A DNA stretch of 44,358 nucleotides. Source: an uncultured Clostridia bacterium. GTDB lineage: Bacteria; Bacillota; Clostridia; Christensenellales; Pumilibacteraceae. The notes beneath the pieces were generated by a model. It ran no database searches and was not told where the DNA came from. It was given only the letters and a program-made list of their open reading frames with translations. Positions 6,001-30,994 of this stretch are shown piece by piece (the first letter of the stretch is position 1; each line of letters begins with the position of its first letter). A program made the position numbers and the translations under genes. Location of the stretch: the NCBI GenBank assembly GCA_947066105.1, contig CAMSYM010000017.1, positions 1 through 44,358 on the forward strand. The letters are read 5' to 3'.

Positions 6001-9000
6001 TTTGAAAAGTATTACCGCGTAGCGGAAAGCGACAACAATATAACGATCGACGGTACGCCCGTCACTCTCAACGAGTACAAAGAGCAATACGTTCCCAATC
6101 CGGGATATAATAAATTCTTTGAAATTTCGCCGAGCAACGGCGCGTCGTCTACTATACAGATAATCCCCAAAGCCAAGACGCAACTCAATATCCCGTCGGG
6201 AACGTCTGCTTCCGACCGTAAGGCTATACTCGACGAGTATAATCTGCTCGAAGACGGAAACGGCATATATTATCCGTTCAGAATATTGTTCTACGACGAG
6301 ATCAACGGTTCGCCCATAACCGAAGGCTCGTGGGGCGCGGCGATATTAAAGGTTTATATCGATAACGACCCTATAAAGGTCGACACGTCCGTGGTAACGG
6401 ATAAATACACGGCGGCGGGCGCTTACCGCAATACGCCCAATTACAAATTCAAGCTGTCCAAGGGTACGGACTTCTTTGTCGACGTATCGTCGTTGCTCGT
6501 AGACAACGACATCAAGCTCGACGGAACGTCGTTTGCGGTCGATAACGCAAGCTTCACGCCCGAAGAAAAACTGTTTAACGACTATTTGGTCATGCCCGAT
6601 CCCGACGATCACGTCAAGGTCGCGCCGTCTAACGGAAAGTTGCCGATAGTCGTCGGCGCGCCGGACGCAAGTTCCGGCATGCCCGCTTCGACATTGCGGT
6701 TCAAGGCCAACAACGCGTTCAAGGGTACCGTCGACTTGTTGTACACGTTTGGCGACAGCGTTGCGGACGTTACGGGAACGGGCGGGTCTTCCGTAAAAAT
6801 AATGTTCTCGATAACTTACAACAACGAAAATCCGACGGCTAACGTAGATACCTTCGGCGGTTCGGAATCTATAAACATCGTTATGAAAACGGGCGACAGC
6901 TTTACGTTGTACGCCGCCGATTCCAACTTGTTTGCGGGCGATGCCGACGGCGGATTCAATTCGATAGGTTATGTAAACGGGTATGTGACAGAGCGTGCCG
7001 CCGATTATTTCGACGCATTCCATTTCAAGACCGCGGGAACGTATACCGAAAACTCTATCGGCGCGCTCGGCTCGCTCATCGTGGGCAGCGACGATGCGCC
7101 GAGTACGCTCAGATTCAGCAAATGGGATGCTTTTGCCAATCCCAACGATGCGAGCATGTTCGATATAGCTGTCGGTAAACGCTATCAATGCGAGTTCAGC
7201 AGTAACATGTTGCCCATGAGCGTGACGTTGAAAGCGTTGGGCGTTACCGATACCGTTTATACGCTCACGCTTATCGACGGCGAGCAAACTACGACTACCG
7301 TCAACATCAATATTACGGTGCTTCCGACCGCGCCCACGGCGAGCGACAGTTTGTTGCCGAAGGGCATGACTAAGGTCGAGGGCAGCGATAATACTTATGC
7401 AATATCGCTCGAATACGGCGAGAGCAGAGAGTATACGCTCCGTAGCTTTATGAAGGACGTCGATCTTGACGATATCAGCGGTTTGGAAGTTTATCGCAAC
7501 GTCGACAACTCGCAGTATTCGATCGACAACCCCGTAGGCATATCCGCTATTTCGGTCGAAAGCACCAAGGTGCTTACGCAAAATGCGATATACATCACCG
7601 CAACGGACTTTATTCCTACCGAAGGCGAATATTCGTCGGTGTCGTTCCGCGTTGCCGACGCGCACGGCGCGATATCCGATTTTATCACGATCAACGTGTC
7701 GATAGCGCCTAAGGAAGTGGAAGTTATAGCTACTCAAACCAAAGTACACAAAGCCACGCTTAAAAGCTATGCCGATTACGAAGCGGACGGTCGATCCGTT
7801 TATATCGATCTTGTCGCGCCGGTAGGCGAAGCCGTGCTGTTGTCCGACCGCGACGCGCTTGCGCCTTCCGCTCGTTACGACGTAGAAGTATACGCTTTGG
7901 TCAAGAAAAACGCAGACGGCGTATTTTCGCAGTTGCTCCGTCCGACGGACGCCGGGTTCGTCGCAGACGATTGCAGGCTTGTAACGGTCAGCAGTTCGGG
8001 GATATCGTTCGGTAGCGGAGAGATCGTAGACTATGTCGAGCGATTCTTCACTGTGTCGTTGTCGTCCGACGGAAAGACTTTGGAATTTATACCCAATTCC
8101 GCTACCATAGCGGCGGAAAGCAATAACGCCGCGCTCGGCAATATTCGTTTGTATATCGTTGCCGCAAAGCGTTATATCAACGGCGACAAACAGACTATGA
8201 CGAGCAAACAGGCGTTTGCCGATATATCGGTAGCAAACTCCGCGCTCGTAGCCGTGCCGTCGTCGCCCGTTAACTCCGGCTATCCGATGATCAAGGTCGG
8301 CGAAGACGAAGAGCGTTTGCGCGAGTCGGCGTTCCTTGAATTTACGGGTTCCGCGGGGGATTCGCTCACATGGGATCTGTACAATAATCTCGATCCCGAT
8401 CTCGGCTTGTTCTACGATTACGATCTTATCAATAATCCCGCGATCAAGGTCGATAGACCGGACGGCGCGGGTTCTGTCAACGTCGGCGGATTGGAAACTA
8501 TCAATTTCGTTAAAGCGGAAATAGGCGGTATATCCGAAACGGTGTCCGGCAAAGGCGACGTTATTTCGGTAACGCCGTCGGGCGACGGTAAAAAGCTTAC
8601 CGTCAAGATCAACCGCAAGGTGTTCACGGGTCAACCGCCGAAGGACGGCAATACCAAGTCGTATACAGACGTTAAAGTAGACATATATTGCGCGGATACG
8701 ATAGGTATGCGTTCTGGCATAACCAACACGCAAAATCTCGTTAAGACGACGATCAACGTTCGAGTCGAAAACGACGTTCCAGAGATCAAAGAAGTTACCG
8801 ATCCCGCGCTCATATCCAAGCTCGGATATTCGCTCACTTACAGCGACGTCGAAGGATACGTGCTTGACGCCAAGCTTGAAAAAGGCGATAAGCTCTCGCT
8901 CAATATTCCCGACTTCATCGATGACGCCGATATCGATATGGACGAGTACGTGTTGCTGTATACGGGTAGCGAAAACAGCCTTATCACGAGTAGCGGCGTG

Positions 9001-10848
9001 TTGATGGGTTCTACGTCTCTCGACGGTACAAACGACGGCATAGGCAGAATAAAACAGGGATCGTCTACGTTGTTTACCGTGCGGCTCGTCACGTCCAGTA
9101 ACAGTTATGCCGTTTCCACGCTGAGCAAGATAGAGTTTACGTGTGAATCGGTGGCGCGCGGCGCAATAGGTACATGTCACATACAACTTCGCGACTCAGT
9201 GCAGGGCGCGGTGACTCGAATTTTGACCGTGAATATAACGGTAGATAATATAGCGCCTAAGGTGAAGCCCGATATAAACACAAGCATTACTATGATGGGT
9301 ATCGGGAAAGACGGCACCGAAGAAGATATGTTCGATGCGGCTAAATCGTATTTGATAACCGACTTCGTGACGGATGAAAACGGCGATAGCTATTTGGCGA
9401 CGGATCCCGAAAATGCAGAGAAATTGCCGACGTATGTGTTTGTCGACGCGATACTCGTTTACGACCTTGACGATCCGATAAATAAACCGTACTTATACGG
9501 ACCGAATTTAAAGGTCGTCAATGAAGATACCGGAATCGAGGAATACTCAACTACGACTTTGTGTCGTATAGATTGGGCTGAGACCGACGACAAGCATCAA
9601 ACGTTCCGCATAACCCCGATCGCCGGCGTGTACGGCGTGCAAAAGATAACGCTTACGGTCGTCGACAGCGGATACGAGGACGGCGCAAGCGCGGGCGTCC
9701 AAGACGGCAAGACGTTCGATCTTAACCTTACCATTACCGTAGCCAACCCGTTGGAGGACGTAGCGGAAGTGCTTGACGGCAAGAATATCGCTTACGGCGT
9801 GACGCGCGCGATAACGGTCGAAGAATTGCTCGGCGAAGAGAACGCGCAAGGCTACGAGATCGATTCGATAGTCGAAGACGGTACCAACAATCTCGGCATA
9901 TTCGCGCCCGGTCAGCAGGCGACTTATACGTCCGCCGATGGCAGCGCATCCGAAAACAAGTGGCGCATATACGCGCGTACGGAAGGCGCCGTCAATACCG
10001 TAGTTACGTTCAGAGCGGGCGATGTTACGCGCGTGCGCACATTGCCTATCACGGTCGTTCCCAACCAAAAACCGGTGCTGAAAGGCGATAAAAACATTTA
10101 CGATTATACGGTGAGCATGCTTACCGATAACGTTGCCCGTACTCTCAAAATTTATCCCGAAGATTGGTTCGACGACTTCGACGAAGGCGATATAATGACT
10201 TTTGTGTCGCCGATAGCGTCGTCGCAATCGGTCATGGTCGAAGCGGTGCTTGATTTCGATACCGCGGCGGACGGCGGCAGAGCGTTCATAATGCTCAAAT
10301 TCAACCGTCGCGGCGCGTCCGATATCACGCTCAACGTCAGCGACAAATCGGGCAAACTATACGAGTACACGATCACCGTCAATTGCACGGACGCTCCCGA
10401 ACTGTCTTGGTGGGAGAACATAGTTTCGCTTATCGAGTCCAACTGGATGTGGTTCTGGATAATCGTGGGCGCGTCGTTGTTGTTTATCATACTGTTGATA
10501 ATCATCATCGTGGTGGTCCACAAAAAGCGCAAGATGCGCAGAGAGATAGAAGCGCTTCTCAATGCGGAAACCGAGCTCGAAGAGGAAATGATGCGGTTGA
10601 GCGCAAGCTCCGCACCGTATCAGTCGTTCGGGTTCTTGCCGCCCACCAATCCCGCGGTCAACGATCCCGGTCTGATGATAGGCGGCAGTCCGACCAATCC
10701 CGCGCCCAACAGCTTGCAGCTCAATGCGGGTACGGGCATGGGCACGAAGCCGCAAAACCAGCAGATACCGCCTGCGGGCATGCCCAACGGCGGGCAGGGC
10801 AATGTTCCGCCTGCCGGTAACGACGGGTTCGATCCCGACGACTTTTGA
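1..10848 (+). CDS. Giant glycine-rich, repeat-containing surface protein (5' end probably cut by the window)
   Basis: An open frame of 3615 codons runs from the first base of the window. It has no visible ribosome binding site, and its first residues look like the end of a signal peptide, so the true start is probably upstream. Residues about 65-325 form a glycine-rich domain that opens with a KLEVWGAQGG-type motif, as in bacterial Gly_rich (PF12810-like) domains. From about residue 450 to 3470 there are at least a dozen beta-sandwich units of roughly 150-250 residues. Their boundaries look like VxNxxP, and they carry acidic DxDxD-type stretches (for example YDLDMDS, YDKDGDIP, DDADIDMDEY) that suggest calcium-binding cadherin/Ig-like repeats. 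Residues about 3482-3506 form one membrane helix, followed by a basic stop-transfer segment (HKKRKMRRE) and a Pro/Asn/Gly-rich cytoplasmic tail. There is no LPxTG signal. An adhesive or structural role at the cell surface is inferred; the ligand is unknown. Confidence 0.8.
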   Translation: MAVACVLCLDVSKPVDVNGVEQDIAQTSSTLSNPTGDYTGVGKLKNGDVLNYSYSGGYYSIKLPKGKYKLEVWGAQGGYYTNSTSSLGGKGGYTYATYEVTSTSGQYIYIYIGGQGKSGTGSNKTGGYNGGGTVYIGNGGGAGGGATHMATTSGLLSALKSNQSAVLLVGGGGGGSTTNAHSGTYGLGGAGGGGNNNGGASTGGWIDGSGYQAGGGTQTSGGRGGKGATTSSCSYVIGQSGDFGKGGVSYGATNSTGGYEAGGGGGGGWWGGGGGGGDSNSAGADGRTGGGGGSGHIKTGLSGGGTSGNWSGNGKARINVISVNQGPVSKNATIQNASAANYYRGTSRNLNISASSLASDNDYANTSGATVNSVYFSNGSSSNYDTLPGTNAGLYLNSACTTSASAYLSWKWTNNQTLTITDIKKYPRNGVDGCTSNGRLTLYTKMRDSFGTTTTRGITTVMFYFVVNDRPITAASDTFKRINRTANGKTYEYRYGNPTHTGADAAKLDHVGNVNNIYNPVQGATQKTVFLPKPIAPTDTSGYTIYASDIFTDADTAYDKVGFRSVAVTSGTTNYSSYYTVTYNADGNYASGVVPSITIKPSSIRPPSAIYVCLTITAQTSETASKVAIGAQNTAVRLVFRLANTRPYFASSSAINTGLSEPYVELDPGQSKTISLSQMIKDIDDSSLSSYFAQGSDGVKVPVNEYIQVDASNIAVPLRSDVGSNYYGKTSVNTTAGKLSSATGEGTTPTGFKTDVIAANGSAAASTAAVVYSFDNNNTIRFTARAATQYMYGQSGRLGDFYVLVRVVDPADVSDTGIWYPIAIKVRSSAPSELPTVANFDLTFDGSFTAGIADTPTSIGRDAVQNTPEGVILTPISYIDGNGAVQGIGTTSYEFNTENGHAKPFAIDPDTFMYSGNGVAKTRALNDIMMLDGTRIADVVNLYDTSSFFKVELISLYANREVFSRLGMSAAQLAAFGVRTFSGDNGDVGYEFYGLKVTPLRSTDSEYFQFDVKLKDSHDAKGTVRICIKIANRAVQARRGNYTGQTPPITTAYALNPSASGEYVYNRSIGALAVNYEIERNDVVQITPYDLAYDLDMDSANAIMNVNGLNTNPTDAGFSEVAAYVNRQYNIPHTSSVNSPATSATPVYAQRLTFINTDNFIANANQYSAYISATVENSCIVGGTEYAVPCIKIVGLSRTTSAVVQLRFTIGDGSSSIDCIVTVTVKNAAPILNTEENHPKENEEDFRVSEPYNMSAEIGGELNNAYQFTARQLAYDKDGDIPTFISGSARIVAKVGGEYYDMLDADFNGVSSVDDAVYKLSDYVQTTLTKNGMGDDVVYIKALSSTELFPVPVYLEFKVQDGFRAQPQTSTLHLLINVRNSKPVFVTDNLMMTNDSEGEEEYSWQISYENKSETKIPRYIFNSKELSDSGVISTASSNKTWLFDDSDAAQSAMLNPLKWVNDDDIVNNYTENLIAKVSGTRVDGNAFGLNPNAAVIYTAIYPSEEVAKQYLALELLFFEKYIDGTGNVAFRALGNDNPAVMTSRYWALKIVDNAGSNATAISANIAIAIKDDHHGKPVYSADKTTSQTGDSALTVFNLFYSYKTPGITAMHTYYRTDGNAEANTPIGGAGENTVYALQINGFDSDRSYQFDGPAPTTQEALQKATFTERFKYQYFAKTITRTSENDETEVEVTYKYYPDSQNAFYYEPIQVGAGGVADTVVPMSYMAMPKASDAGTVGDRVHVTFANANDGPKLQGSNKLLDDEYLNWGDPTNLQYVFENLTLTDVNGATWSGATLNDNPYITIGYAKDPMMLKTAYVNDKRYTLEASGESQTVGRKRIEHKNSDGSSIYHEDKYGFTFAKKTGGRRSTGTLKLTLALKTSVYAANEYKESAVEYVDVEINLANSKPTVSYNDVSLVGYIDNLNVNMTTSDVNGKVVSLNDKANVETAVGDYKLYYSDPDSTDTMKFLLSSATGEDASDMTPSERDYITQVSNMSLSPTAFEKYYRVAESDNNITIDGTPVTLNEYKEQYVPNPGYNKFFEISPSNGASSTIQIIPKAKTQLNIPSGTSASDRKAILDEYNLLEDGNGIYYPFRILFYDEINGSPITEGSWGAAILKVYIDNDPIKVDTSVVTDKYTAAGAYRNTPNYKFKLSKGTDFFVDVSSLLVDNDIKLDGTSFAVDNASFTPEEKLFNDYLVMPDPDDHVKVAPSNGKLPIVVGAPDASSGMPASTLRFKANNAFKGTVDLLYTFGDSVADVTGTGGSSVKIMFSITYNNENPTANVDTFGGSESINIVMKTGDSFTLYAADSNLFAGDADGGFNSIGYVNGYVTERAADYFDAFHFKTAGTYTENSIGALGSLIVGSDDAPSTLRFSKWDAFANPNDASMFDIAVGKRYQCEFSSNMLPMSVTLKALGVTDTVYTLTLIDGEQTTTTVNINITVLPTAPTASDSLLPKGMTKVEGSDNTYAISLEYGESREYTLRSFMKDVDLDDISGLEVYRNVDNSQYSIDNPVGISAISVESTKVLTQNAIYITATDFIPTEGEYSSVSFRVADAHGAISDFITINVSIAPKEVEVIATQTKVHKATLKSYADYEADGRSVYIDLVAPVGEAVLLSDRDALAPSARYDVEVYALVKKNADGVFSQLLRPTDAGFVADDCRLVTVSSSGISFGSGEIVDYVERFFTVSLSSDGKTLEFIPNSATIAAESNNAALGNIRLYIVAAKRYINGDKQTMTSKQAFADISVANSALVAVPSSPVNSGYPMIKVGEDEERLRESAFLEFTGSAGDSLTWDLYNNLDPDLGLFYDYDLINNPAIKVDRPDGAGSVNVGGLETINFVKAEIGGISETVSGKGDVISVTPSGDGKKLTVKINRKVFTGQPPKDGNTKSYTDVKVDIYCADTIGMRSGITNTQNLVKTTINVRVENDVPEIKEVTDPALISKLGYSLTYSDVEGYVLDAKLEKGDKLSLNIPDFIDDADIDMDEYVLLYTGSENSLITSSGVLMGSTSLDGTNDGIGRIKQGSSTLFTVRLVTSSNSYAVSTLSKIEFTCESVARGAIGTCHIQLRDSVQGAVTRILTVNITVDNIAPKVKPDINTSITMMGIGKDGTEEDMFDAAKSYLITDFVTDENGDSYLATDPENAEKLPTYVFVDAILVYDLDDPINKPYLYGPNLKVVNEDTGIEEYSTTTLCRIDWAETDDKHQTFRITPIAGVYGVQKITLTVVDSGYEDGASAGVQDGKTFDLNLTITVANPLEDVAEVLDGKNIAYGVTRAITVEELLGEENAQGYEIDSIVEDGTNNLGIFAPGQQATYTSADGSASENKWRIYARTEGAVNTVVTFRAGDVTRVRTLPITVVPNQKPVLKGDKNIYDYTVSMLTDNVARTLKIYPEDWFDDFDEGDIMTFVSPIASSQSVMVEAVLDFDTAADGGRAFIMLKFNRRGASDITLNVSDKSGKLYEYTITVNCTDAPELSWWENIVSLIESNWMWFWIIVGASLLFIILLIIIIVVVHKKRKMRREIEALLNAETELEEEMMRLSASSAPYQSFGFLPPTNPAVNDPGLMIGGSPTNPAPNSLQLNAGTGMGTKPQNQQIPPAGMPNGGQGNVPPAGNDGFDPDDF
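318..335 (+). repeat. (AT)9 dinucleotide tract inside the surface-protein gene
   Basis: Nine uninterrupted AT dinucleotides encode an alternating Tyr-Ile stretch just before the glycine-rich core. The length is not a multiple of three per unit, so slippage by one unit would shift the reading frame of the whole 3.6-kilo-residue protein. GGC-rich triplet arrays nearby (about 508-524, 785-835) would change length in frame. Confidence 0.9.
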
Positions 10849-12745: not shown

Positions 12746-13951
12746 ATGACAAACAACAAGGTCGAATTTATCGATTATCTCATGGAAAACGACGTCAAGT
12801 TCGTCAAACTGACGTTTTGCGATTTTTTGGGCAGACAGCGCAATATATCCGTGCTGACTTCACAGCTCGAAGACGCGTTCGAACACGGCGTGCTTATAGA
12901 CAGCGCGGCGCTTACCGGCGTCGGCGGGACCGACCTAAAACTGAAACCGGTCGGGTCGTTGTTGTCGGTATTGCCTTGGCGTCCGCATTCGGGTCGAGTG
13001 GTGAGCGTGTTTTGCAACATATTCAACGCCGACGATACGCCGTATATCGGCGATCCGATGGTGCTGTTGGATACGCAGGTAAAAAAGCTCGGCGCGCTGG
13101 GGCTTAAAGCGCAGGTGGCGACCGAGTGCGAATTTTATGTGTTCAAGGAAGAACACGCCGAGGAACTCGTGCCGTTCGATCAAGCCGATTATTGCGCGTG
13201 TTCGCCTTACGATAAGTGCGAAAACCTGCGGCGCGACGTTATAATCAGTTTGGAGGACATGGGACTCAAACCGATCTCGTCGCACCACGAGCGCGGAATG
13301 GGGCAAAACGAAATAGACTTCGAAAGCGCCGATCCGTCGTCTGCCGCGCGCAACTTCATAATGTTCAAGACCGCGGTCAAAAACGTATGCGCGCTCAACG
13401 GCACGATAGCGTCGTTCATGCCGCGCCCCGTCAGCGGTATGCCGGGCAGCGGCTTGCACTTGTTGATAACGCTTTCGGGCAAAAACGCAGATAAAGCGAC
13501 CGCGGCTTTCGCGGAAGGCGTTATGCGCAGATACCGCGAGATCACTTGCTTTGCCAATCCGACGCGCAACAGCTACCGTCGGTTAAAGCCCAATTTCGAA
13601 GTGTCGTACGATAACGTGCGCGGCAAGTCGTTGCGCATATTCGGCGATAACATAGTACAGCTTCGCACGCCCGATGCGAGCGGCAATATTTTTACGGTGC
13701 TGTCGCTCGTGTTTGCGGCGGGGCGCGAAGGCATAGAAAACGGCTATAATCTCCGTCCGCCGTGCGTAGGCGAAAACGACGGCTTTGCCGATATCGACGA
13801 GGCGTTCGCGTTCGCATCGAAAAGCGAGTGGTTGCGCGCCAACATCCCCGGCGTGTACGACGACGTGCTCGATTCGATGAAGCGCAGATACATCGCCGAG
13901 CAGGCGTTAAAGACCGACCGCGAAGTGTTTGACTTTTTAGCCGATATTTAA
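12746..13951 (+). CDS. glnA: Glutamine synthetase family protein, short atypical form
   Basis: A 401-residue member of the glutamine synthetase superfamily, which makes glutamine from glutamate, ammonia and ATP. Visible family features are an N-terminal beta-grasp part with FCDFLGR, the metal-binding ECE at 127-129, the ERGMGQNEIDF segment, MPGSGLH with His238, NPTRNSYRRL, and the late arginine segment LRTPDASGN. Several details differ from standard type I enzymes. The usual DGSS segment reads DSAA, the second His of GSGxHxH is Leu, and the C-terminal part is about 40-60 residues shorter with no recognisable adenylylation loop. A gene for an ANTAR regulator follows after 15 nt, and glutamine-using enzymes come next, which supports a role in glutamine supply. 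A related gamma-glutamyl ligase activity cannot be excluded. Confidence 0.82.
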   Translation: MTNNKVEFIDYLMENDVKFVKLTFCDFLGRQRNISVLTSQLEDAFEHGVLIDSAALTGVGGTDLKLKPVGSLLSVLPWRPHSGRVVSVFCNIFNADDTPYIGDPMVLLDTQVKKLGALGLKAQVATECEFYVFKEEHAEELVPFDQADYCACSPYDKCENLRRDVIISLEDMGLKPISSHHERGMGQNEIDFESADPSSAARNFIMFKTAVKNVCALNGTIASFMPRPVSGMPGSGLHLLITLSGKNADKATAAFAEGVMRRYREITCFANPTRNSYRRLKPNFEVSYDNVRGKSLRIFGDNIVQLRTPDASGNIFTVLSLVFAAGREGIENGYNLRPPCVGENDGFADIDEAFAFASKSEWLRANIPGVYDDVLDSMKRRYIAEQALKTDREVFDFLADI

Positions 13952-13966
13952 ACAAAGGAGGACCGA

Positions 13967-14533
13967 TTGGACGCACTTATCGTAGCGAACGCGTCGGCGC
14001 AACAGCGCGCGCTGACCGACGTGTTATACCACGAAAAAATCAATTGCGTGGTTTGCACTACCGCCGCCGAGGCTCGGCGGGCGTCGCTGTGCCGTCCTTT
14101 CGACCTGTTTATAATCAACAGCGGACTTTCGGACGAACACGGGAACGAGCTTGCGATGGCAGTCGCCGACGCCAACGGATGCGGCGGGATATTCGTCGAC
14201 GACGCCATGCGCGTGGATCAGCTTGCCGACGAGCTTAACGACTGCGGCATAATAACGCTTGCGCGCCCCGTCGCCAAAACGACGTTGCTGGACGCCGTGC
14301 GGCTCATCAAGGTATCCAATGCGCGCGTGCGCGAGCTGAAAGCGCAAAACGAAGAGCTTAAAGCCAAGCTCGAAGACATGAAGTTTATAACCCGCGCCAA
14401 GATAGCGCTTATGCGTTCGCTCGGTTATACGGAAGAGCAGGCGCACCGTTACATCGAAAAAAAGTCTATGGAAATGCGCGTGTCGCGCCGCAAGGTAGCC
14501 ATGGATATACTCAATACTTACGAGGCGATCTGA
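13967..14533 (+). CDS. ANTAR-domain RNA-binding antiterminator with degenerate receiver
   Basis: A 188-residue regulator. The N-terminal part (about 1-115) has the alternating pattern of a response-regulator receiver. However, the phospho-acceptor Asp is replaced by Asn51 (FIINSGL), the N-terminal acidic pair is missing, and the usual KP is RP, so phosphorylation is unlikely. A helical linker (about 115-135) is followed by a C-terminal ANTAR three-helix domain (about 135-186: ITRAKIALMRSLGYTEEQAH and onward). ANTAR proteins bind paired RNA hairpins and prevent termination. The start is TTG at 13967, 4 nt after AAAGGAGG. Clostridia are known to carry such genes (NitR type) next to glutamine synthetase, so nitrogen-dependent control of this operon is the likely role. 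Confidence 0.87.
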   Translation: MDALIVANASAQQRALTDVLYHEKINCVVCTTAAEARRASLCRPFDLFIINSGLSDEHGNELAMAVADANGCGGIFVDDAMRVDQLADELNDCGIITLARPVAKTTLLDAVRLIKVSNARVRELKAQNEELKAKLEDMKFITRAKIALMRSLGYTEEQAHRYIEKKSMEMRVSRRKVAMDILNTYEAI

Positions 14534-14537
14534 ACAA

Positions 14538-15950
14538 GTGTACTACGACAAACCAAAAGAAGAATGCGGCGTTTTCGGCATAATTTCGCCGCGACCGATC
14601 CCTACCGTTCCGCTGTCTGCGAGCGCGTTGATGGCTTTGCAACACCGCGGCGAGGAGAGCGCGGGCATAGCGACTTTCGTCGACGGTGCGCTCAAATGCA
14701 AAAAGGGCATGGGGCTTGTGTCCGAAGTGTTTTCTTCCGACTATTTGGAGTATGCGGCAAATACCAAGATCGCAGTCGGACACGTCAGATATTCGACTAC
14801 CGGTTCGTGCAATCTCGAAAACGCGCAACCGATAGAAACGGTGCATTCCAAAATTTCGCTCGCGCTCGCGCACAACGGCAATCTTACCAATTCGGCGCAT
14901 ATCCGCGGCGATCTCGTTCAGTCGGGCATGGTGTTGCATACCACCAACGACACCGAGATATTGAATATCCTTATCGTGCGCAACATGATAGAAACCAACG
15001 ACATCGAGCGCGCGGTAGTCAAAGCGATGAACTTTGTCGAAGGCGCGTTTTCCATCGTGATAGCGACAAAGGACAAGCTTATAGCCGTTCGCGATCCCAA
15101 CGGGTTCAAACCGCTGTGTATGGGGCGGCTCGGCGACGCGACGGTGTTCGCGTCCGAAACGTGCGCGCTCGACGCGTTGGGCGCGACCTTCGTCCGCGAC
15201 GTGAAGCCGGGAGAGGTCGTCAGTTGCGACGGCAAGGGCAATATCAATACATACATGCTCGACAATGCGTCGCAGAGCGGCTTGTGCGCGTTCGAGTTTA
15301 TTTATTTCGCGCGTCCCGATTCGGTCATCGACGGGATAAGCGTATACAAAGCGCGCGAGCAAATGGGCAGAGCGTTGTACAGACAAAAGCCTACGGACGC
15401 CGATTACGTTTGCGGCGTACCCGATTCGGGGCTGGTCGCGGCGCAGGGCTATTCGCAGGAATCGGGCATACCGACGGTACCCGCGTTCGTCAAAAACAAA
15501 TACGTCGGGCGGTCTTTCATATTGCCCGATCAAGTAAAGCGCGAAAGCGCGGTCAATATCAAGCTTAACCCCATACGCTCGACGGTCGAAGGCAAACGTA
15601 TCGTGCTTATCGACGACTCGATCGTGCGCTCGACTACGAGTACGCGCATAATAAGAATGTTGCGCGCGGCGGGCGCGAAAGAAATACATATGCGCATAAG
15701 CTCGCCGCCGTTCAAATACGAGTGCTATTTCGGCACGGACATCGACGACCGCGACAAGCTTGTAGCCAATCATTACGACACGGACGGTATTTGCAAAAGG
15801 ATCGGCGCGGACAGTTTGGAGTATCTGTCGCTCGAAAATCTCAAAGCGATATCGCCCAATACGTCGTTCTGTTTTGGTTGCTTTACGGGCGATTATCCCG
15901 CGCCCGTTACTCCCATGCTCAAAAATTCATTCGATGAATTCGGAAAATAG
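14538..15950 (+). CDS. purF: Amidophosphoribosyltransferase (glutamine PRPP amidotransferase)
   Basis: A 470-residue enzyme for the first committed step of purine synthesis (PRPP plus glutamine to phosphoribosylamine). The protein begins with a nine-residue propeptide ending in EE. Cleavage would expose the N-terminal nucleophile Cys10 (CGVFGI), as in Bacillus PurF. The class II glutaminase domain shows LMALQHRGEESAG. The phosphoribosyltransferase domain shows the PRPP loop VLIDDSIVRST. The C-terminal CFGCFTGDYP segment and other cysteines fit the iron-sulfur-containing, oxygen-sensitive Bacillus type. The GTG start lies 4 nt after the ANTAR gene stop with only a weak ribosome binding site (GAGG), which suggests translational coupling. 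No other pur gene is in the window. Its grouping with glutamine synthetase and carAB points to shared control by nitrogen. Confidence 0.96.
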   Translation: MYYDKPKEECGVFGIISPRPIPTVPLSASALMALQHRGEESAGIATFVDGALKCKKGMGLVSEVFSSDYLEYAANTKIAVGHVRYSTTGSCNLENAQPIETVHSKISLALAHNGNLTNSAHIRGDLVQSGMVLHTTNDTEILNILIVRNMIETNDIERAVVKAMNFVEGAFSIVIATKDKLIAVRDPNGFKPLCMGRLGDATVFASETCALDALGATFVRDVKPGEVVSCDGKGNINTYMLDNASQSGLCAFEFIYFARPDSVIDGISVYKAREQMGRALYRQKPTDADYVCGVPDSGLVAAQGYSQESGIPTVPAFVKNKYVGRSFILPDQVKRESAVNIKLNPIRSTVEGKRIVLIDDSIVRSTTSTRIIRMLRAAGAKEIHMRISSPPFKYECYFGTDIDDRDKLVANHYDTDGICKRIGADSLEYLSLENLKAISPNTSFCFGCFTGDYPAPVTPMLKNSFDEFGK

Positions 15951-15963
15951 ACGAGAGGTATAT

Positions 15964-17052
15964 ATGGAAAGATATCTGATAATGAAAGACGGCACGGTCT
16001 ACGTCGGCAAGGCGATAGGCGCGAGCGGCACGGCAATAGGCGAGGCGGTGTTCACGACCGCTATGTGCGGCTATTTGTTGACGCTGAGCGATCCGAGCTA
16101 TTGCGGACAGATAGTCATGCAAACGTTTCCGCTCATAGGCAACTACGGCGCTATCGAATCGGACGCGGAAAGCGAAAAGCCGTTCCTTAACGGTTATATA
16201 GTGCGCGAGCTGTGCGACGTCGGCTCGAACTACCGCAAGGAGTGCGAGCTTGACGAGTATTTGAAAAAGCACAACGTAGTCGGTATAGCGGGCGTGGATA
16301 CGCGCGCGATAACGCGCAAGATACGTAACATGGGCGTTATGAACTGTATGATCACGGACAGCGTAAAGGACTTGCCGCAAAAGATAGCCGCGCTCAAAAA
16401 GTATAAGGTGCGAGCCGCAGTAGAGCAAACGTCGTGTGCCGAGCCGCTCGAACTCGATCCGATAGACCAAACGCATAAATACCGCGTGGTGCTTTACGAT
16501 TTCGGCGCGAAAAAGAATATCGAACGAATGCTCGTAAAGTACGGTTGCAGTGTGATACGCGTGCCGTACAACACGACTGCGGAACAAGCGCTGGCGTATG
16601 AGCCGGACGGCATAATGCTGTCTAACGGCGGCGGCGATCCCGCCGACAATACGGGCGTGATAGAAGAGCTTAAAAAGCTCAACGCCCAAAAACTGCCCAC
16701 GTTCGGCATTTGCTTGGGGCATCAATTGCTCGCGCTTTCGTACGGCGGGAAAACCGTAAAACTCAAATACGGACACCGCGGCGGCAATCAACCCGTTAAA
16801 GATCTGTTAACGGGCAAAACTTACATAACCAGCCAAAACCACGGTTATGCGGTCAAGGCGGACAGCCTTGCGCCCGACGTCGGGAAGGTGCGGTTTGTAA
16901 ACGCCAACGACAAAACCGTCGAGGGCATAGACTATACGTGCGCGCCCGCTTTCTCGGTGCAGTTCCACCCCGAAGCGTGCGGCGGCCCGAAGGACACCGA
17001 ATTGTTGTTTGCAAGGTTTGTTCAAATGATGGAGGATAATCGTCATGCCTAA
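15964..17052 (+). CDS. carA: Carbamoyl-phosphate synthase small (glutaminase) subunit
   Basis: A 362-residue glutamine amidotransferase subunit that releases ammonia for carbamoyl phosphate, the precursor of UMP and arginine. The C-terminal class I GATase domain carries the triad Cys250 (GICLGHQ), His335 and Glu337 (QFHPEA), and the family segment HRGGNQP. The frame is open further upstream, but the ATG at 15964 is chosen because GAGAGG lies 5 nt before it and the family usually begins at this point (MERYLIMKDG). Upstream Met codons lie inside purF. The gap to purF is 13 nt, and the end overlaps carB by 8 nt, so the three genes are co-transcribed. Confidence 0.96.
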   Translation: MERYLIMKDGTVYVGKAIGASGTAIGEAVFTTAMCGYLLTLSDPSYCGQIVMQTFPLIGNYGAIESDAESEKPFLNGYIVRELCDVGSNYRKECELDEYLKKHNVVGIAGVDTRAITRKIRNMGVMNCMITDSVKDLPQKIAALKKYKVRAAVEQTSCAEPLELDPIDQTHKYRVVLYDFGAKKNIERMLVKYGCSVIRVPYNTTAEQALAYEPDGIMLSNGGGDPADNTGVIEELKKLNAQKLPTFGICLGHQLLALSYGGKTVKLKYGHRGGNQPVKDLLTGKTYITSQNHGYAVKADSLAPDVGKVRFVNANDKTVEGIDYTCAPAFSVQFHPEACGGPKDTELLFARFVQMMEDNRHA

Positions 17053-20000
17053 GGATAAAAGCATCAAGAAAGTACTCGTCATCGGCTCCGGTCCGATAAC
17101 GATAGGTCAGGCGGCGGAGTTCGACTATGCGGGAACGCAGGCATGCCGCACGCTCAAAAGCAAAAAGGTCGAGGTCGTTTTGGTCAATTCCAATCCCGCG
17201 ACGATCATGACCGATAAAGCCATGGCGGACGCTATCTATATTGAACCGCTTACCGTGCCTACGCTCGAACGCATAATCTTGCGCGAAAAGCCCGACGGCA
17301 TTTTGCCGGGACTGGGCGGACAAACGGGTTTGACGCTGTCCATGGAGCTTGCCAAATCGGGATTTTTGGCGGAACACGGCGTGCGGCTGTTGGGCGTGCG
17401 TCCCGAAACGATAGACAAAGCCGAAGACCGCGAGCTGTTTAAGGAAGCGATGCTCGAAATCGATCAGCCGTGCATACCGAGCGACGTAGTTACCGACGTG
17501 GACGCGGCGGTGGAGTTTGCCGACAAGATAGGCTATCCCGTTATAGTCCGTCCCGCATTCACGCTCGGCGGCGCTGGCGGCGGCATTGCCGAAAACGAAA
17601 AGGAACTGCGCGAGATAGCGCGCGGCGGGCTGGAACTTTCGCCCATACATCAAGCGCTCATCGAAAAGAGCATATACGGCTGGAAAGAGATAGAATTCGA
17701 GGTGATGCGCGATCGCTTAGGCAACGTCATTACCGTTTGCTCGATGGAAAATCTCGATCCCGTCGGTATCCATACCGGCGACAGCATAGTCGTAGCGCCC
17801 ACGATGACTCTGTCGGACAAGGACTATCAAATGTTGCGGACGGCGGCGCTCGATATAATCACGCACCTTAAAATAGAGGGCGGCTGTAACTGTCAGTTCG
17901 CGCTCGACCCCAAATCGAGCGATTATGCCGTAATAGAAGTCAATCCGCGCGTTTCGCGGTCGTCGGCGCTTGCGAGCAAGGCGACGGGCTATCCGATAGC
18001 CAAGGTCACAACGCTCATCGCGCTCGGCTATACGCTCGACGAGATCACCAACGCCGTTACAGGCAAAACATGCGCGTGCTTCGAGCCTGCGATCGACTAT
18101 TGCGTAGTCAAGCTTCCCAAATGGCCGTTCGATAAATTCGTGTACGCAAAGCGTACGCTCGGCACGCAAATGAAGGCGACGGGCGAAGTCATGTCAATTG
18201 CGCCGAGCTTCGAGGCGGGGCTGTTGAAAGCTGTGCGAGGCGCGCTCGGCACGGACACTTTGCGCAATCCGCATTACGAAAAACTGACCGACGCGGAAAT
18301 AGAGAGCATGCTCATGCCTGCGACCGATTATCGTTTGTTCATACTGTACGAAGCGGTAAAGCGCGGGATAAGCGTAGATAAGATATACGATATAACCAAG
18401 ATCGACCCGTGGTTCTTGAACAAGATCAAAAATCTCGTCGAGTACGAAAACGGCATAGCCGACCGTCCAATTACCAAAGACGAATATATGACGGGCAAAA
18501 AGCTCGGTTATCCCGACAAGGCGCTCGAAAAAATATCGGGCAATAAACTGCCCATGCATCGCCGCGCAGTATTCAAAACGGTCGATACGTGCGCCGCGGA
18601 ATTCAAAGCGGAAACGCCGTACTTCTATTCGACATACGACGACGAGAACGAAGCCAAAGAATTCATCGAAGAAAAAAAGAGCGACCGCAAGCGCGTCATA
18701 GTTTTCGGATCGGGTCCTATCCGTATAGGTCAGGGCATCGAGTTCGACTATGCGTCGGTGCATTGCGTGTGGGAGCTTAAAGAACTCGGCTACGACGTCG
18801 CGATAGTCAACAACAATCCCGAAACGGTGTCCACCGATTTCGACACGGCGGACAGACTGTATTTCGAGCCGCTCACAGAAGAGGACGTCGACAACGTTAT
18901 CGCGACCGAGCGCCCGTACGGCGTGGTGGTCGCGTTCGGCGGGCAGACTGCTATAAAGCTCACAAAGCACCTGTCCGAAAAAGGCGTGCGGATATTGGGA
19001 ACGCCCGCCGACTCGATAGACGCGGCGGAGGACCGCGAGCGGTTCGACGCATTGCTCGAAAAGCTGGACATAGCGCGTCCGCAGGGACGCACCGTCAAAA
19101 CGACCGAGCAGGCGCTCGCGGCGGGCAACGCGCTCGGCTATCCGGTGCTTTTGCGTCCGTCGTACGTTTTGGGCGGGCAAAACATGATAATAGCCTTCTC
19201 CGACGACGACGTTAAGGAATATATGTCGATAATACTCGACGGCAATCCCGACAACGTCGTGCTTATAGACAAGTACGTGATGGGTACTGAGATCGAAGTG
19301 GACGCCATATGCGACGGCGAGGATATACTTATCCCCGGCATAATGGAACACATCGAGCGCGCAGGTATTCACAGCGGCGACTCGATAGCGGTATATCCCG
19401 CGCAGAACATTTCCGATAAAAACAAGGAAGAGATAATCGATTATACCCGTCGGCTCGCGACCGCGCTCGATACCAAGGGGCTGGTAAATATCCAGTACAT
19501 AATAAGCGACGGAAAGATATACGTTATAGAAGTCAATCCGCGCTCGTCGCGCACTATCCCGTACATTTCCAAGGTGACGGGCGTGCCTATGATAAAACTC
19601 GCGACCGAGTGTATGGTCGGGAAAAAGCTCAAAAAACTCGGCTACGGCACGGGACTGTATCCGTCCGCGCCGTACGTCGCAGTAAAAGTGCCTATATTCT
19701 CATTTGAAAAGCTCACCGATCTCGACACGCACTTGGGACCCGAAATGAAGTCGACGGGCGAGGTTTTGGGCGTAGGCAAAACGCTGGACGAGGCGCTGTA
19801 TAAGGGGCTTGTTGCGGCGAGCTACAAGCTGAAACGCCGCGGCGGCATATTGATGACGGTGCGCGATACCGATAAATCGGAGATCGCCAACGTTGCGAAA
19901 AATTACTACGAACTCGGCTTCGAGTTGTACGCGACCGCAGGCACGGCGGAAGTTATACGGCGTTCGGGCATGCAGGTAACGGTAGCGGACAAGCTCAACG

Positions 20001-21088
20001 AGACCCCCAACGAAAACACGATGAGCCTGCTCAATTCGGGCAAGATAGACTATCTGATATCCACGTCCACTCGCGGCAGGATACCGACGCACGACGACGT
20101 GCGCTTGCGTTGCAGAGCGGTCGCAAGGGGGATACCTTGCCTTACCGCCATCGATACAGCAAACGCCGTGGCGCGCGCGTTGAAGAGCCGATACAGCCAG
20201 TACAATACCGAGCTTGTCGACATCAACAACATGCGCACGGAGCGGCAACGGCTCAACTTTATAAAAATGCACGGTTGCGGCAACGATTATATTTACGTAG
20301 ACTGCCTGACAAGACCTATCGGCAATATGGAATCGGTCGCAGTCAACCTTTCGGACAGGCATTTCAGCGTGGGCGGCGACGGCGTGATATTCATTTATCC
20401 GTCCGAAACGTGCGACGCGAAAATGCGCATGTTCAATTCCGACGGGTCGGAAGGCAAGATGTGCGGCAACGGAATACGTTGCGTAGGCAAATACCTTTAC
20501 GACAACGGCAAGACCGATAAACTCGACATCACGGTCGACACTCTTTCGGGCGTGAAAAAACTTAAACTTTTCGCGCGCGACGGCAAGGTCAATTCGGTAA
20601 AGGTCGATATGGGCGCCGTCATGCTCGATCCGGCAAAAGTACCCGTTAATATTTCGGGCGAGCGCGTGGTCGCGCATAAGATTTCCACGCCGCGCGGCGA
20701 TATGGATATAACATGCTCGTCTATGGGCAATCCGCACTGCACCGTCATAGTTTCGGACGTGCAAAACTGCGACGTGGAAGGCTTGGGCAAAATGCTCGGC
20801 GAGGACAAGTCGTTGTTCCCCGAAGGCGTCAACGTCGGGTTTATGCAGGCGATAGACCGTACTCACTTGAAGCTGCGCGTCTACGAGCGCGGCACGGGCG
20901 AGACCATGGCTTGCGGAAGCGGCGCGTGCGCGGCGGCGGTCGCGGCTGTTCTCAACGGCTTGTGCGATAAAGACACCGATATTTCGGTGCGCTTGCCGGG
21001 CGGAGAACTGACCATTCGTTATACGGACGACGCGGTGTATCTTACGGGCGAAGCGTGCGAAGTGTTCAGAGGAACGGTAAGGCTTTAA
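17045..21088 (+). CDS. carB-dapF: Fused carbamoyl-phosphate synthase large subunit and diaminopimelate epimerase
   Basis: One uninterrupted frame of 1347 codons. Residues 1 to about 1062 are a full-length CarB: a carboxyphosphate half (about 1-400), an oligomerisation part, a second ATP-grasp half starting near 549 (VFGSGPIRIGQGIEFDY), and an MGS-like allosteric domain (about 930-1050). After a linker of about eight residues, a complete DapF follows (about 1070-1347), beginning with FIKMHGCGNDY. It carries both catalytic cysteines, Cys1140 (MCGNGIRC) and Cys1290 (ACGSGACAA). CarB makes carbamoyl phosphate; DapF converts LL- to meso-diaminopimelate for lysine and peptidoglycan. No Shine-Dalgarno sequence precedes the ATGs at 20231 or 20267, so separate translation of DapF is not supported. 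GGAGG precedes the CarB ATG. Fusion, rather than two adjacent genes, is what the sequence shows; an assembly or base error removing a stop remains possible. Confidence 0.9.
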   Translation: MPKDKSIKKVLVIGSGPITIGQAAEFDYAGTQACRTLKSKKVEVVLVNSNPATIMTDKAMADAIYIEPLTVPTLERIILREKPDGILPGLGGQTGLTLSMELAKSGFLAEHGVRLLGVRPETIDKAEDRELFKEAMLEIDQPCIPSDVVTDVDAAVEFADKIGYPVIVRPAFTLGGAGGGIAENEKELREIARGGLELSPIHQALIEKSIYGWKEIEFEVMRDRLGNVITVCSMENLDPVGIHTGDSIVVAPTMTLSDKDYQMLRTAALDIITHLKIEGGCNCQFALDPKSSDYAVIEVNPRVSRSSALASKATGYPIAKVTTLIALGYTLDEITNAVTGKTCACFEPAIDYCVVKLPKWPFDKFVYAKRTLGTQMKATGEVMSIAPSFEAGLLKAVRGALGTDTLRNPHYEKLTDAEIESMLMPATDYRLFILYEAVKRGISVDKIYDITKIDPWFLNKIKNLVEYENGIADRPITKDEYMTGKKLGYPDKALEKISGNKLPMHRRAVFKTVDTCAAEFKAETPYFYSTYDDENEAKEFIEEKKSDRKRVIVFGSGPIRIGQGIEFDYASVHCVWELKELGYDVAIVNNNPETVSTDFDTADRLYFEPLTEEDVDNVIATERPYGVVVAFGGQTAIKLTKHLSEKGVRILGTPADSIDAAEDRERFDALLEKLDIARPQGRTVKTTEQALAAGNALGYPVLLRPSYVLGGQNMIIAFSDDDVKEYMSIILDGNPDNVVLIDKYVMGTEIEVDAICDGEDILIPGIMEHIERAGIHSGDSIAVYPAQNISDKNKEEIIDYTRRLATALDTKGLVNIQYIISDGKIYVIEVNPRSSRTIPYISKVTGVPMIKLATECMVGKKLKKLGYGTGLYPSAPYVAVKVPIFSFEKLTDLDTHLGPEMKSTGEVLGVGKTLDEALYKGLVAASYKLKRRGGILMTVRDTDKSEIANVAKNYYELGFELYATAGTAEVIRRSGMQVTVADKLNETPNENTMSLLNSGKIDYLISTSTRGRIPTHDDVRLRCRAVARGIPCLTAIDTANAVARALKSRYSQYNTELVDINNMRTERQRLNFIKMHGCGNDYIYVDCLTRPIGNMESVAVNLSDRHFSVGGDGVIFIYPSETCDAKMRMFNSDGSEGKMCGNGIRCVGKYLYDNGKTDKLDITVDTLSGVKKLKLFARDGKVNSVKVDMGAVMLDPAKVPVNISGERVVAHKISTPRGDMDITCSSMGNPHCTVIVSDVQNCDVEGLGKMLGEDKSLFPEGVNVGFMQAIDRTHLKLRVYERGTGETMACGSGACAAAVAAVLNGLCDKDTDISVRLPGGELTIRYTDDAVYLTGEACEVFRGTVRL

Positions 21089-21284
21089 TTAGAATTCGCA
21101 ATTAGGAATTCGGAATGCGGAATGACGGTCGATTAAGAATGCGTAATGCGATAATGCGTAATTGTCGGACCGTTGCGCGGTGAGAATAAATTAAGAATTC
21201 GGAATTATCGTCGATAAAGCGTTCCGGGCTAACTGCAATTTGCGTCGGTTCGGTATCGGGTCGCGCGTTGCGAACATAATTCGC
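21089..21284. repeat. Intergenic repeat fragments upstream of pyrG
   Basis: This stretch contains several copies of a GGAATGCGGAAT/GTAATGCG-type motif, the string ACGGTCGATTA, and a short ACCG...CGGT-GAGA hairpin motif. Related strings recur at 27131-27180, 39938-39976, 40390-40425, 43685-43720, 43945-43980 and 44305-44340. No coding potential is seen. There is no clear U-run terminator after carB-dapF. Confidence 0.7.
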
Positions 21285-21363: not shown

Positions 21364-22998
21364 ATGGAAAAATACATATTCGTAACCGGCGGGGTCGTAT
21401 CGGGACTCGGCAAGGGAATAACGGCGGCGAGTCTCGGACTTATACTCAAATCCAAAGGTTTAAAGGTCATCGCGCAAAAGCTCGATCCGTATATCAACGT
21501 CGATCCGGGCACGATGAGTCCGTACCAGCACGGCGAAGTTTTCGTTACGGAGGACGGCGCCGAGACCGATCTAGATCTCGGACATTACGAGCGGTTCATC
21601 GACGAAAACCTGAATAAGTTTTCCAATCTGACTACGGGCAAGGTGTATTCCACCGTATTGCAAAACGAACGCGACGGCGTGTATAACGGCGAGACCGTTC
21701 AGGTCATTCCGCACATAACCAGTCAGATCAAAAAGTTTATATATTCGGTAGGCAAAAAGATCGATGCGGACGTGGTCATCACCGAGATAGGCGGCACGGT
21801 AGGCGATATAGAAAGCTTGCCGTTTATAGAAGCCATTCGTCAGGTGAGCAACGACGTAGGCAGGGAAAACTGTCTGTTCGTACACGTCACGCTCGCGCCG
21901 ACCATCACGTCGAGCGGCGAAGTAAAGACCAAGCCGACGCAGCATTCGGTAAAGACGTTGCGCTCGCTCGGTATTTCGCCCGATCTCGTGGTTTTGCGCA
22001 CGAGCAAGCCGTTGGACGACAAGCTCAAAGAACGGCTCGCTATGTCGTGTAACATCGAACCCGATTGCGTCATCGAAAACCGCGACGCCGATCTTTTGTA
22101 CGAAGTTCCGTTGTTGCTTTTGAACAGCGGCATAGGCGATATCGTCGCGCGCGAGCTCGATCTGCCCGACGTTCCGCCTCAGCTCGACGAGTGGCGCGCA
22201 ATGGTGAAAATGGCGAAGGAACGCGAAGGCACGGTGACTATCGCGCTCGTCGGGAAATACGTGCAAATGTTCGACGCGTATCTTTCGGTCGTGGAAGCGC
22301 TCACGCACGGCGGCATACATAACGGCGTAAAGATCGATCTCAAATGGATAGACGCCGAAAAATTGACCGACGATACGGTCGCGAGCTATCTCGATCAAGC
22401 CGACGGCGTCATCGTTCCCGGCGGGTTCGGCGACCGCGGTATAGAGGGCATGGTGACAGCCGCCAAGTATTGCCGCGAGAACGATAAACCGTACTTCGGC
22501 ATATGTTTGGGTATGCAGATCATAGCGATAGAGTTCGCGCGCAACGTTTTGGGGCTTGCCGACGCCAATTCGCGCGAGTTCGATCCCGCATCGGCGCACA
22601 AAGTGATAGACATCATGGAAGATCAGGTCGGTTGCGAGAACACGGGCGGCACGATGCGGTTGGGCGCGTACGAGTGCATGATAAAGCCCGATACCACGCT
22701 CGCAAGGTGCTACGGCAACGGCGTGACTTCGGTCACGGAACGGCACCGCCACCGTTACGAATTCAACAACGCAATGCGCGAACCTATGCAAAATGCGGGG
22801 CTTACGCTCGGCGGCATTTCGCCCAACGGAAATCTCGTCGAATCGGTGGAGATAACCGACAAGCGGTTTTATCTAGGCGTACAGTATCATCCCGAATTCA
22901 AATCCCGCCCGGCGCGTCCGCAAGCCATATTCCGCGAGTTTATCGCGGCGGCGAAAGGTTTTGCCGCGGACAGGCGCGTTAAAAAAGGCAAAAAATAA
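21364..22998 (+). CDS. pyrG: CTP synthase
   Basis: A 544-residue enzyme that aminates UTP to CTP with glutamine and ATP. The N-terminal synthetase domain begins with the typical [15 protein letters not shown] and carries [13 protein letters not shown] and [12 protein letters not shown]. The C-terminal class I glutamine amidotransferase domain has Cys381 (GICLGMQ), His509 and Glu511 (YHPEF). The length is normal for the family. The ATG at 21364 has GGAG a few bases upstream. It is transcribed from its own promoter, separated from carB-dapF by a repeat-bearing gap, and followed by dapL after 54 nt. It is the third glutamine amidotransferase in this part of the window. Confidence 0.97.
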
Positions 22999-23052: not shown

Positions 23053-24249
23053 ATGAAACTCAATCGCAATTTTAAAAATTTAAAAGAGAATTATCTTTTT
23101 GCGGAAGTGGAAAAGCGGGTGAATGCGTATAAAGCGGAATTCCCGCAGTCCGACATCATAAGCTTGGGTATCGGCGACGTTACTCAGCCGCTGTCGCTCA
23201 AAACGGTGGAAGCGTGCAAAAGCGCCGCCGTCGATATGAGTACGCGTACGGGCTTTCGCGGATACGGACCGTACGACGGCTATGCGTTTTTGAAAAACGC
23301 GATAGTCGATTATTACAAAACTCGCGGCGTGGATATAAACGCCGACGAGATATTCGTTACCGACGGCGCAAAAAACGGTATCGGTAACTTTTTGGATCTG
23401 TTCGATACCGACAATACGGTCATGATCCCAGATCCCGTTTATCCCGCGTATGTCGACGCCAATGTTTTGGCGGGACATAAAATAGTGTACGTCGACGCCA
23501 CCAAGGACAACGGGTTTTTGGCGATGCCGCCCAAAAAGGGCAAGGCGGATATAATATATATTTGTTCGCCTAACAATCCGACGGGCGCGGCATATACCGT
23601 TGAGCAATTAAAGGAATGGGTGGACTTCGCGCTTGAAAATCAAGCGGTCATACTTTACGATGCGGCGTACGAAGCGTATATCGAGAACAATGGCATAGCG
23701 CGGTCTATATTCGAAGTGACGGGCGCGCGCGATTGCGCCGTGGAGTTTTGCTCGTTTTCCAAAATGTCGGGCTTTACGGGCGTGCGGTGCGGTTGGACGG
23801 TCATACCCATGGCGTCGCCGCTCAACCGTATGTGGTTGCATCGCCAAGCCATCAAATTCAACGGCACGTCTTACGTCGTACAGCGCATGGCGGAAAGCGC
23901 GTTGCGCGGCGGGTTCGACGACACCAAGCGCATGGTCGAAGCCTACAAAAAGAATGCGCGGCTCATCACGCAAAAGTTCGACGAGCTGGGTATAGAATAC
24001 GTCGGCGGCGTCAACGCGCCGTACGTATGGTTCAATTGCGGAATAGATTCGTGGCAGTTCTTTGACTATCTGCTCAAAAAGACGCGTATAGTCTGCACTC
24101 CCGGCAGCGGATTCGGCAGAAACGGCAACGGCTGGGTACGTCTTACCGCGTTCAACACCGAAGAACGTACCGTCGAAGCGCTCAAACGTTTCGAGCCGTT
24201 CTGGAAAGAATTTCAAGCCGTGGGCGATAAACTGTTCGCACGCGTGTAA
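23053..24249 (+). CDS. dapL: LL-diaminopimelate aminotransferase
   Basis: A 398-residue PLP-dependent class I/II aminotransferase that makes LL-diaminopimelate directly from tetrahydrodipicolinate and glutamate, bypassing the acyl-intermediate routes. DapL signatures are the N-terminal NYLFAEVEKRVN, the LGIGDVTQPL segment, CSPNNPTGAAY, and the PLP lysine Lys237 (SFSKMSGFTGVRCGW). Its product is the substrate of DapF, which is encoded in the carB fusion upstream. The best Shine-Dalgarno (AAAGGAG, 23031-23037) is 15 nt from the ATG, unusually far, but an in-frame stop at 23047-23049 excludes an earlier start. The next gene begins 13 nt after the stop. Confidence 0.95.
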   Translation: MKLNRNFKNLKENYLFAEVEKRVNAYKAEFPQSDIISLGIGDVTQPLSLKTVEACKSAAVDMSTRTGFRGYGPYDGYAFLKNAIVDYYKTRGVDINADEIFVTDGAKNGIGNFLDLFDTDNTVMIPDPVYPAYVDANVLAGHKIVYVDATKDNGFLAMPPKKGKADIIYICSPNNPTGAAYTVEQLKEWVDFALENQAVILYDAAYEAYIENNGIARSIFEVTGARDCAVEFCSFSKMSGFTGVRCGWTVIPMASPLNRMWLHRQAIKFNGTSYVVQRMAESALRGGFDDTKRMVEAYKKNARLITQKFDELGIEYVGGVNAPYVWFNCGIDSWQFFDYLLKKTRIVCTPGSGFGRNGNGWVRLTAFNTEERTVEALKRFEPFWKEFQAVGDKLFARV

Positions 24250-26709: not shown

Positions 26710-27240
26710 ATTCACTAAGGCGAATAAAACTGTATTGTTTGTAATTCCGAACGAGCGCAGCACAGCGCATTACTTTTTTGTCCTACGTAGCAAGGTGAAG
26801 CCTTATTCTGAACAAGCGCAGCGCAGTGAAGGATCTCATCATTATTAAATATGGTTGAGATTCTTCGGTGGGCAAAAAACGCTCAGAATGACAAAAGAAT
26901 ACTGCGGGAATTCTTAATTATCCGTTAATGCCGAATTCTTATTCACATTGCGGCGGATCGCCTTGATTTCTCGGCTGCGCTTACGCTCCGCTCGAAATGA
27001 TGGGGTGTTAGGTTGTGGTATGCTTTTCTATAAATAACAGAGACGCTTTTCTACTCTCCCCATCATCTCGACCGAAGTGCGCTTTGCGCACGTAGCGGAG
27101 AGATCTAGGCGTTAGCCGCACATTACTCGATTGACCATAATTCCGCATTCCGCATTCCGCATTCCTAATTCTCTCTCCGCGCAGGGGGGGGGCTATCATT
27201 CCGCATTTCTAATTTCGCATTCGATATAATATTTGCTTTA
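26710..27240. repeat. Mosaic of interspersed repeats after the 6S RNA candidate
   Basis: No gene is seen. Two elements are present. The first is a foldback element at about 26774-26905: a forward arm that includes GTCCTACGTAGCAAGG and GAAGGATCTCAT, an AT-rich centre, then an inverted arm GAGATTCTTC...CAGAATGACAAAAG. The second is an inverted copy of the larger element described at 43540-44358: the ATCGCCTTGATTTCTCGG...GAAATGATGGGG part at about 26944-27007, an AT-rich spacer, and CCCCATCATCTCGACCG...GGCGTTAGCCGC at about 27053-27121, followed by repeated TTCCGCATTCC motifs to 27175. Confidence 0.85.
27184..27192 (+). repeat. G9 homopolymer upstream of the SPOR-like gene
   Basis: Nine consecutive G residues lie about 81 nt before the ATG at 27273. 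Such tracts vary in length by slippage, and this one lies in the upstream region of the next gene. Confidence 0.85.
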
Positions 27241-30761: not shown

Positions 30762-30763
30762 TG

Positions 30764-30905: not shown

Positions 30906-30994
30906 TTTGCTCACTATTCGTACATAGATTTATCGATCCAACATTCGTAAATACAATTTTGTATTCGGAATTATAATAGGAGAAATTCCCATTT

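Follow-up and report, generated by a model that had tools for sequence, protein, structure and literature searches.

The protein described here, present in many Clostridia, joins two unrelated enzymes, one that produces carbamoyl phosphate and one that produces an amino acid of the cell wall; their closest described relatives are found apart. Human CPS1, to our knowledge, carries no appended epimerase fold. It nevertheless offers one parallel, since PMC4655335 places an amino-acid effector, N-acetylglutamate, at the C-terminal end of this carbamoyl-phosphate synthase (CPSase). The CPSase large subunit of E. coli, CarB (1a9x, 1bxr), has 1,073 residues and ends after its allosteric domain with no diaminopimelate epimerase (DapF) attached; according to PMC6245113, the E. 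coli CPSase dimerises by way of its regulatory domains, Lys993 binds UMP and Thr1042 contacts ornithine. The solved DapFs (2otn, 9mro, 1bwz) likewise stand alone. It is known from PMC4227774 that the E. coli DapF dimer still activates RppH when both of its cysteines are mutated, a case (6d13) in which a DapF dimer regulates another enzyme independently of epimerase activity, although the two are separate proteins and the partner is a different one. Another relative with the DapF fold, O-ureidoserine racemase (7vdy), is named for another amino acid, but its solved chain is not fused to CarB. A search by title and start of abstract, in which most subscription papers lay outside coverage, returned no description of a CarB-DapF fusion, in agreement with the sequence-only reading of this DNA, which knew of none. 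The fusion is also not mentioned in the parts seen of a gut amino-acid reconstruction (PMC9026213). The architecture of a central enzyme in common gut bacteria was therefore found described nowhere in the literature searched.

In the window, by which we mean the whole analysed stretch of 44,358 nucleotides from an uncultured Clostridia bacterium, one open frame on the forward strand (17045..21088) encodes 1,347 residues uninterrupted by a stop codon, and its two halves are covered by profiles of the two enzymes. The NCBIfam CPSase large subunit profile matches residues 1-1050 with 1454.4 bits (cut-off 599), TIGR01369 is matched at full length over positions 1-1052 (1416.6 bits, cut-off 1027), and TIGR00652, the DapF profile, matches residues 1071-1345 (275.6 bits, cut-off 114.65); the Pfam matches agree on both halves. 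The CarB part comprises residues 1-1062 (17045..20230, +; PRK05294, TIGR01369), its end being set by comparison with stand-alone CarBs. It matches E. coli CarB over residues 1-1048 and has identical residues at the positions aligned with Lys954, Thr974, Thr977, Lys993 and Thr1042; K983 (19991) is the equivalent of the UMP-site lysine Lys993, and T1034 (20144) that of Thr1042. The allosteric (MGS) domain occupies about residues 940-1062 (19862..20230, +; PF02142, alignment to 1a9x). It is followed by the linker MRTERQRL (residues 1063-1070; 20231..20254, +), placed by a junction alignment of 14 loci and a conservation table, and by the DapF domain (residues 1071-1345; 20255..21079, +). Since the 26 stand-alone CarBs stop at the start of the linker or earlier, near residue 1062, and the DapF profile begins at 1071, the linker is about eight residues long. 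The DapF domain matches solved DapFs over its whole length, 2otn being the closest by sequence, and has the pocket residues and both catalytic cysteines, Cys1140 (20462..20464, +; equivalent to H. influenzae Cys73) and Cys1290 (20912..20914, +; equivalent to Cys217). The window protein matches 46 PDB sequences, no single one of which spans both enzymes. The gene for the small subunit, carA (15874..17052, +; PRK12838/TIGR01368), the partner expected beside a CPSase large subunit, adjoins carB and overlaps its start. Thus the single frame, the curated profiles and the relatives discussed below confirm what had been claimed from the sequence alone, that CarB and a DapF with complete catalytic residues share one polypeptide with a linker of about eight residues.

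The surrounding gene order is a glutamine-synthetase-like (glnA-like) gene (12746..13951, +; a TIGR00653 match below its cut-off), an ANTAR protein, one more frame, carA, carB::dapF, pyrG for CTP synthase (21364..22998, +; TIGR00337) and dapL for LL-DAP aminotransferase (23053..24249, +; TIGR03542 over its cut-off), the last encoding the step that precedes DapF. The glutamine-synthetase-like gene and the ANTAR-domain gene upstream of carA together take up positions 12746-14533. In this genome, which has 28 contigs and is 96% complete, the only dapF matches are the two halves of the fused DapF and a 19-bit scrap elsewhere, so that the second stand-alone dapF, a search for which had been proposed, was not found genome-wide. 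The genome-wide search returned a single CarB, and meso-DAP dehydrogenase (Ddh) had no match in the genome. As far as the families searched show, the fused gene is the sole source of meso-DAP, there being no other DapF and no Ddh match.

The same fused frame in close relatives had also been proposed as a check. Among 100 relatives searched, the junction is in frame in 18 of the 19 other genomes of the same genus, 15 of the frames being full length and three interrupted by contig ends, while the remaining genome (G010) had no match to the fused protein. Among the matches listed, frames of about 1,350 residues also occur in further families, both of the order and of the class, and of 398 genomes sampled across the phylum at least 19, counting the window genome, have the fusion. 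When named genomes were scanned with the 42-residue junction as query and the best 80 of at least 353 relatives were kept, 78 of the 80 loci had fused frames; one locus (L127) is fused through the junction with its frame broken just after, and another (L124) is cut by a contig end. Most of these named records are metagenome bins, which is what an assembly artefact or a chance frame would have in its favour. However, the same junction in Ruminococcus sp. FC2018 and Mogibacterium kristiansenii, both in records titled as strains, together with its recurrence in the relatives and in 78 of those best 80 loci, rules this explanation out, and we give it practically no chance. By filing, the 78 fused loci comprise 74 from Clostridia, two with no class, one from a Treponema bin and one from a Solobacterium bin; the last two (L121, L130) may reflect transfer, misbinning or mislabelling. 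Two short records titled as bacteriophage, MT837649.1 and MT838905.1, match the whole carB::dapF protein (identities of 65 and 63%), and may be contigs of bacterial rather than phage origin.

It could be argued that cells also produce a free DapF, by initiation inside the frame or by cleavage, with the fusion as no more than a read-through product. An in-frame ATG is present at residue 1063 (20231), and the position of the DapF start codon is TTG in three of the 29 loci listed (L007, L013 and L027). In the window, however, this position is CTC, which is not a start codon, and the remaining listed loci have CTC, CTG, CTT or ATA. Synonymous variation among 19 same-genus rows is 0.35 at the junction against 0.22-0.35 in its surroundings; as it is not lowered, it gives no pointer to a conserved hidden start site. 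It is the protein sequence of the linker region that is conserved across families, with E1056, N1061, R1064, F1072, K1074 and M1075 invariant in 14 loci from many of them. A hidden internal start is unsupported by this variation despite the three TTG codons, the earlier claim of no clear internal start is upheld, and separate production of DapF appears very improbable.

With respect to origin, a FastTree tree of the CarB core places all 84 fused rows in one clade with support of 100 against 26 stand-alone rows, and a single origin of the fusion is therefore likely from these alignments. The DapF tree (158 of 180 rows, most near copies dropped) has some stand-alone copies among the fused ones and needs four changes between the fused and stand-alone states, with 56 of its 154 inner branches open. 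We read these stand-alone copies as fission, duplication or weak resolution. Several independent fusions are not supported by the CarB tree, although the DapF tree mixes some copies. Four unfused loci, picked from 30 unfused genomes for the closeness of carB and dapF, have dapF only a few kb away from carA-carB, and three of them also have dapL and a glnA-like gene nearby. A one-time joining of nearby carB and dapF genes would be the simplest story. In one unfused relative (G096:C6:39785-42926), CarB itself is split into adjacent frames of 330 and 779 residues.

The DapF domain has not remained an intact enzyme throughout. Our set of 126 fused sequences consists of the window, 28, 19 and 78 sequences (L003 is the window itself and was not counted again; L022 was missed by the motif search). 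Both catalytic positions are readable in 123 of them: 70 have both cysteines, the form that we call type I and to which the window belongs, and 53 have lost at least one. The first cysteine is replaced in 51 of these 53 (by Ala in 36, Gly in 13 and Ser in 2), while one Mogibacterium sequence (L123) keeps the first and has lost the second. By contrast, both cysteines are kept in all 57 stand-alone DapFs counted. These are 57 of 64 rows, three of them with the second cysteine read from the full frame; left out were two duplicates (L134, L243), two partial copies (L127, L236), two rows from a single Cys-less copy that is cut by a contig end but includes the junction (L124, L192), and a Cys-less copy cut at a contig start and taken as a fused fragment (L227). 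In the DapF tree 43 Cys-less rows, our type II, form one clade (support 88; 42 of them 100), whereas the others scatter, and at least seven changes of cysteine state are needed among the fused rows. The type II clade has the first cysteine in only one of its 43 rows, L123, which is without the second, so that, in contrast to the solved DapFs, the pair expected of a diaminopimelate epimerase is lacking. The DapF tree puts one member (L077) in the clade (88), yet the CarB tree groups it with type I; this placement and its type I MGS motif indicate that it is better read as a separate cysteine loss, and the counts of 43 and 39 given for the clade include it. All four type II domains tested, out of the 43, pass the TIGR00652 cut-off (205-277 bits), and genomes may consequently be credited with an epimerase that they do not have.

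A second, stand-alone dapF accompanies a Cys-less fused copy in 28 of 47 genomes and an intact one in four of 30, counts that were read by hand, on which a Fisher test ignores kinship, and that include a partial gene at a contig start (G403) among the 28 and a genome with a second fused copy (G459) among the 30. Type I is thus usually the cell's only DapF. Of the 19 Cys-less genomes without a second dapF, 12 have Ddh and seven have neither; these seven may still use the domain, or their assemblies may be incomplete. Ddh is not special to Cys-less genomes, since it is also present in 12 of the 26 intact-copy genomes without a stand-alone dapF and absent from the other 14. In a Neglecta bin (L101:2887-3820) a stand-alone dapF lies directly behind the fused carB::dapF and both keep their cysteines, a possible step before loss of the fused activity.

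Loss of the cysteines has not been followed by decay of the domain. Among 14 top pairs per group, analysed by a simple method at high dS, dN/dS is 0.02-0.07 in type I domains (14 pairs) and 0.08-0.26 in Cys-less domains (nine pairs, dS being undefined in the other five), and in pairs with both values defined the Cys-less domain has about twice the dN/dS of the CarB core. The Cys-less domains are, by these estimates, under purifying selection that is weaker than on type I domains or the CarB core. Because this selection persists after catalysis has been lost, the domain probably does something for CarB, which suggests that the Cys-less DapF kept in some relatives now helps to control or support it. 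The substrate pocket and the linker are mostly kept in the clade, and 42 of its 43 rows keep the aromatic residue aligned with Tyr268 of the E. coli DapF dimer interface, whose place in the sequence we assume, the residue number being that in a PDB title. All five residues that bind the distal end of DAP, as named in PMC12039745, are kept in 35 of the 43 rows; this retention may be partly inheritance.

Two other explanations of the Cys-less domains have to be weighed here. The first is a neutral fusion followed by a ratchet, in which the genes were joined by chance and CarB came to depend on DapF for folding or stability, with no regulation by DAP. It would fit the closeness of carB and dapF in some unfused relatives, the near-universal dimer-interface aromatic, the several separate cysteine losses and the weaker constraint on Cys-less than on intact domains. 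It does not, however, account well for a ligand pocket that mere structure would not need and that is whole in 35 of 43 rows, nor for the change of the CarB effector motif in the same clade, and we regard it as rather unlikely. The suggestion made from the sequence that the fusion is simply tolerated by chance is disfavoured as well, since it appears to be a single ancient event that many families have retained, and since the domain persists after its catalysis is lost. The second is that the type II domain has become a new one-base enzyme rather than a regulator. DapF-fold relatives with changed cysteines, such as PhzF and the hydroxyproline dehydratases, do other chemistry. Chains of this kind are among the Foldseek matches of the model of one type II protein (L074), in which solved DapFs rank first, and the second cysteine remains in 41 of the 43 rows, next to the five distal pocket residues. 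Yet besides the first cysteine the pocket is mostly unchanged (N11 in 36 and R209 in 35 of 43), and the domain sits at the allosteric end of a CPSase; a one-base enzyme therefore seems improbable to us.

The allosteric end of CarB differs between the types, as does the operon. Of 70 type I rows, 69 have the lysine aligned with Lys993 and one has a gap there, against six rows with the lysine among the 43 of the Cys-less clade, all of which keep the threonine aligned with Thr1042; the type I motif persists in the ten Cys-less rows outside the clade. This change in the MGS motif lends support, at the level of sequence, to the earlier suggestion of an involvement of CarB's allosteric end. Where a flank of 4 kb or more was available on one side, and with arg queries from L074 and pyrG and dapL queries from the window, arg genes adjoin 26 of 39 Cys-less clade loci against none of 36 type I loci, the window included; conversely, dapL or pyrG adjoins 26 of the 36 type I loci and none of the 39. 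Of six Cys-less loci outside the clade, one has arg genes and none has dapL or pyrG. A locus with shorter flanks outside these counts (L051) has pyrG. The operon order of L074 is argG, argH, argF, carA, carB::dapF.

These observations lead us to favour, by a modest balance of probability, a reading in which the window gene encodes a bifunctional polypeptide whose DapF dimer would tie CPSase protomers together and through which DAP could influence the CPSase. The type I protein would be the large subunit of a glutamine-dependent CPSase with the cell's only DapF at its C-terminus, a fused domain that would still make meso-DAP. Since DapF dimerises and CPSase dimerises through its regulatory domains, which here bear DapF, the fused domain could bridge two protomers, and DAP bound in its pocket could report the diamino acid to CarB. 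After loss of epimerisation in type II, with the dimer aromatic, pocket and linker mostly retained, the domain would remain as a regulatory or structural part of an arginine-type CPSase without the UMP-site lysine. More tentatively, and at a probability that we put well short of even, the type II DapF may be a pseudoenzyme that senses DAP or a different diamino acid and controls an arginine-operon CPSase which UMP no longer regulates, type I being both catalyst and regulator. If this were true, levels of a cell-wall precursor would set carbamoyl phosphate supply. The fusion would also provide a natural series from an active fused enzyme to a retained pseudoenzyme, in which the contribution of an appended domain to its partner could be examined. 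AF2 models that cover the MGS domain and DapF, each from 35 rows, are confident in both domains for the window (pLDDT 87.5, pTM 0.65) and for L074 (pLDDT 88.1, pTM 0.76); in the window model confidence falls below 50 just before the linker, at model residues 128-133 (protein residues 1052-1057), and because of this low confidence at the junction the models give no fixed MGS-DapF interface.

Other features of the window were noted in passing. Positions 1-10848 hold a 3,615-residue open frame whose N-terminal region includes a glycine-rich ALK/LTK-type domain (PF12810). At 28230-32740, NuoE-like, NuoF-like and [FeFe] hydrogenase genes are consecutive, a row that we take to resemble an electron-bifurcating hydrogenase. 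The motif GAATTCGGAAT is clustered and largely intergenic, with 23 matches at no more than one mismatch against 1.5 expected, and its sites include 21092-21205, 27140-27171 and 43681-43705.
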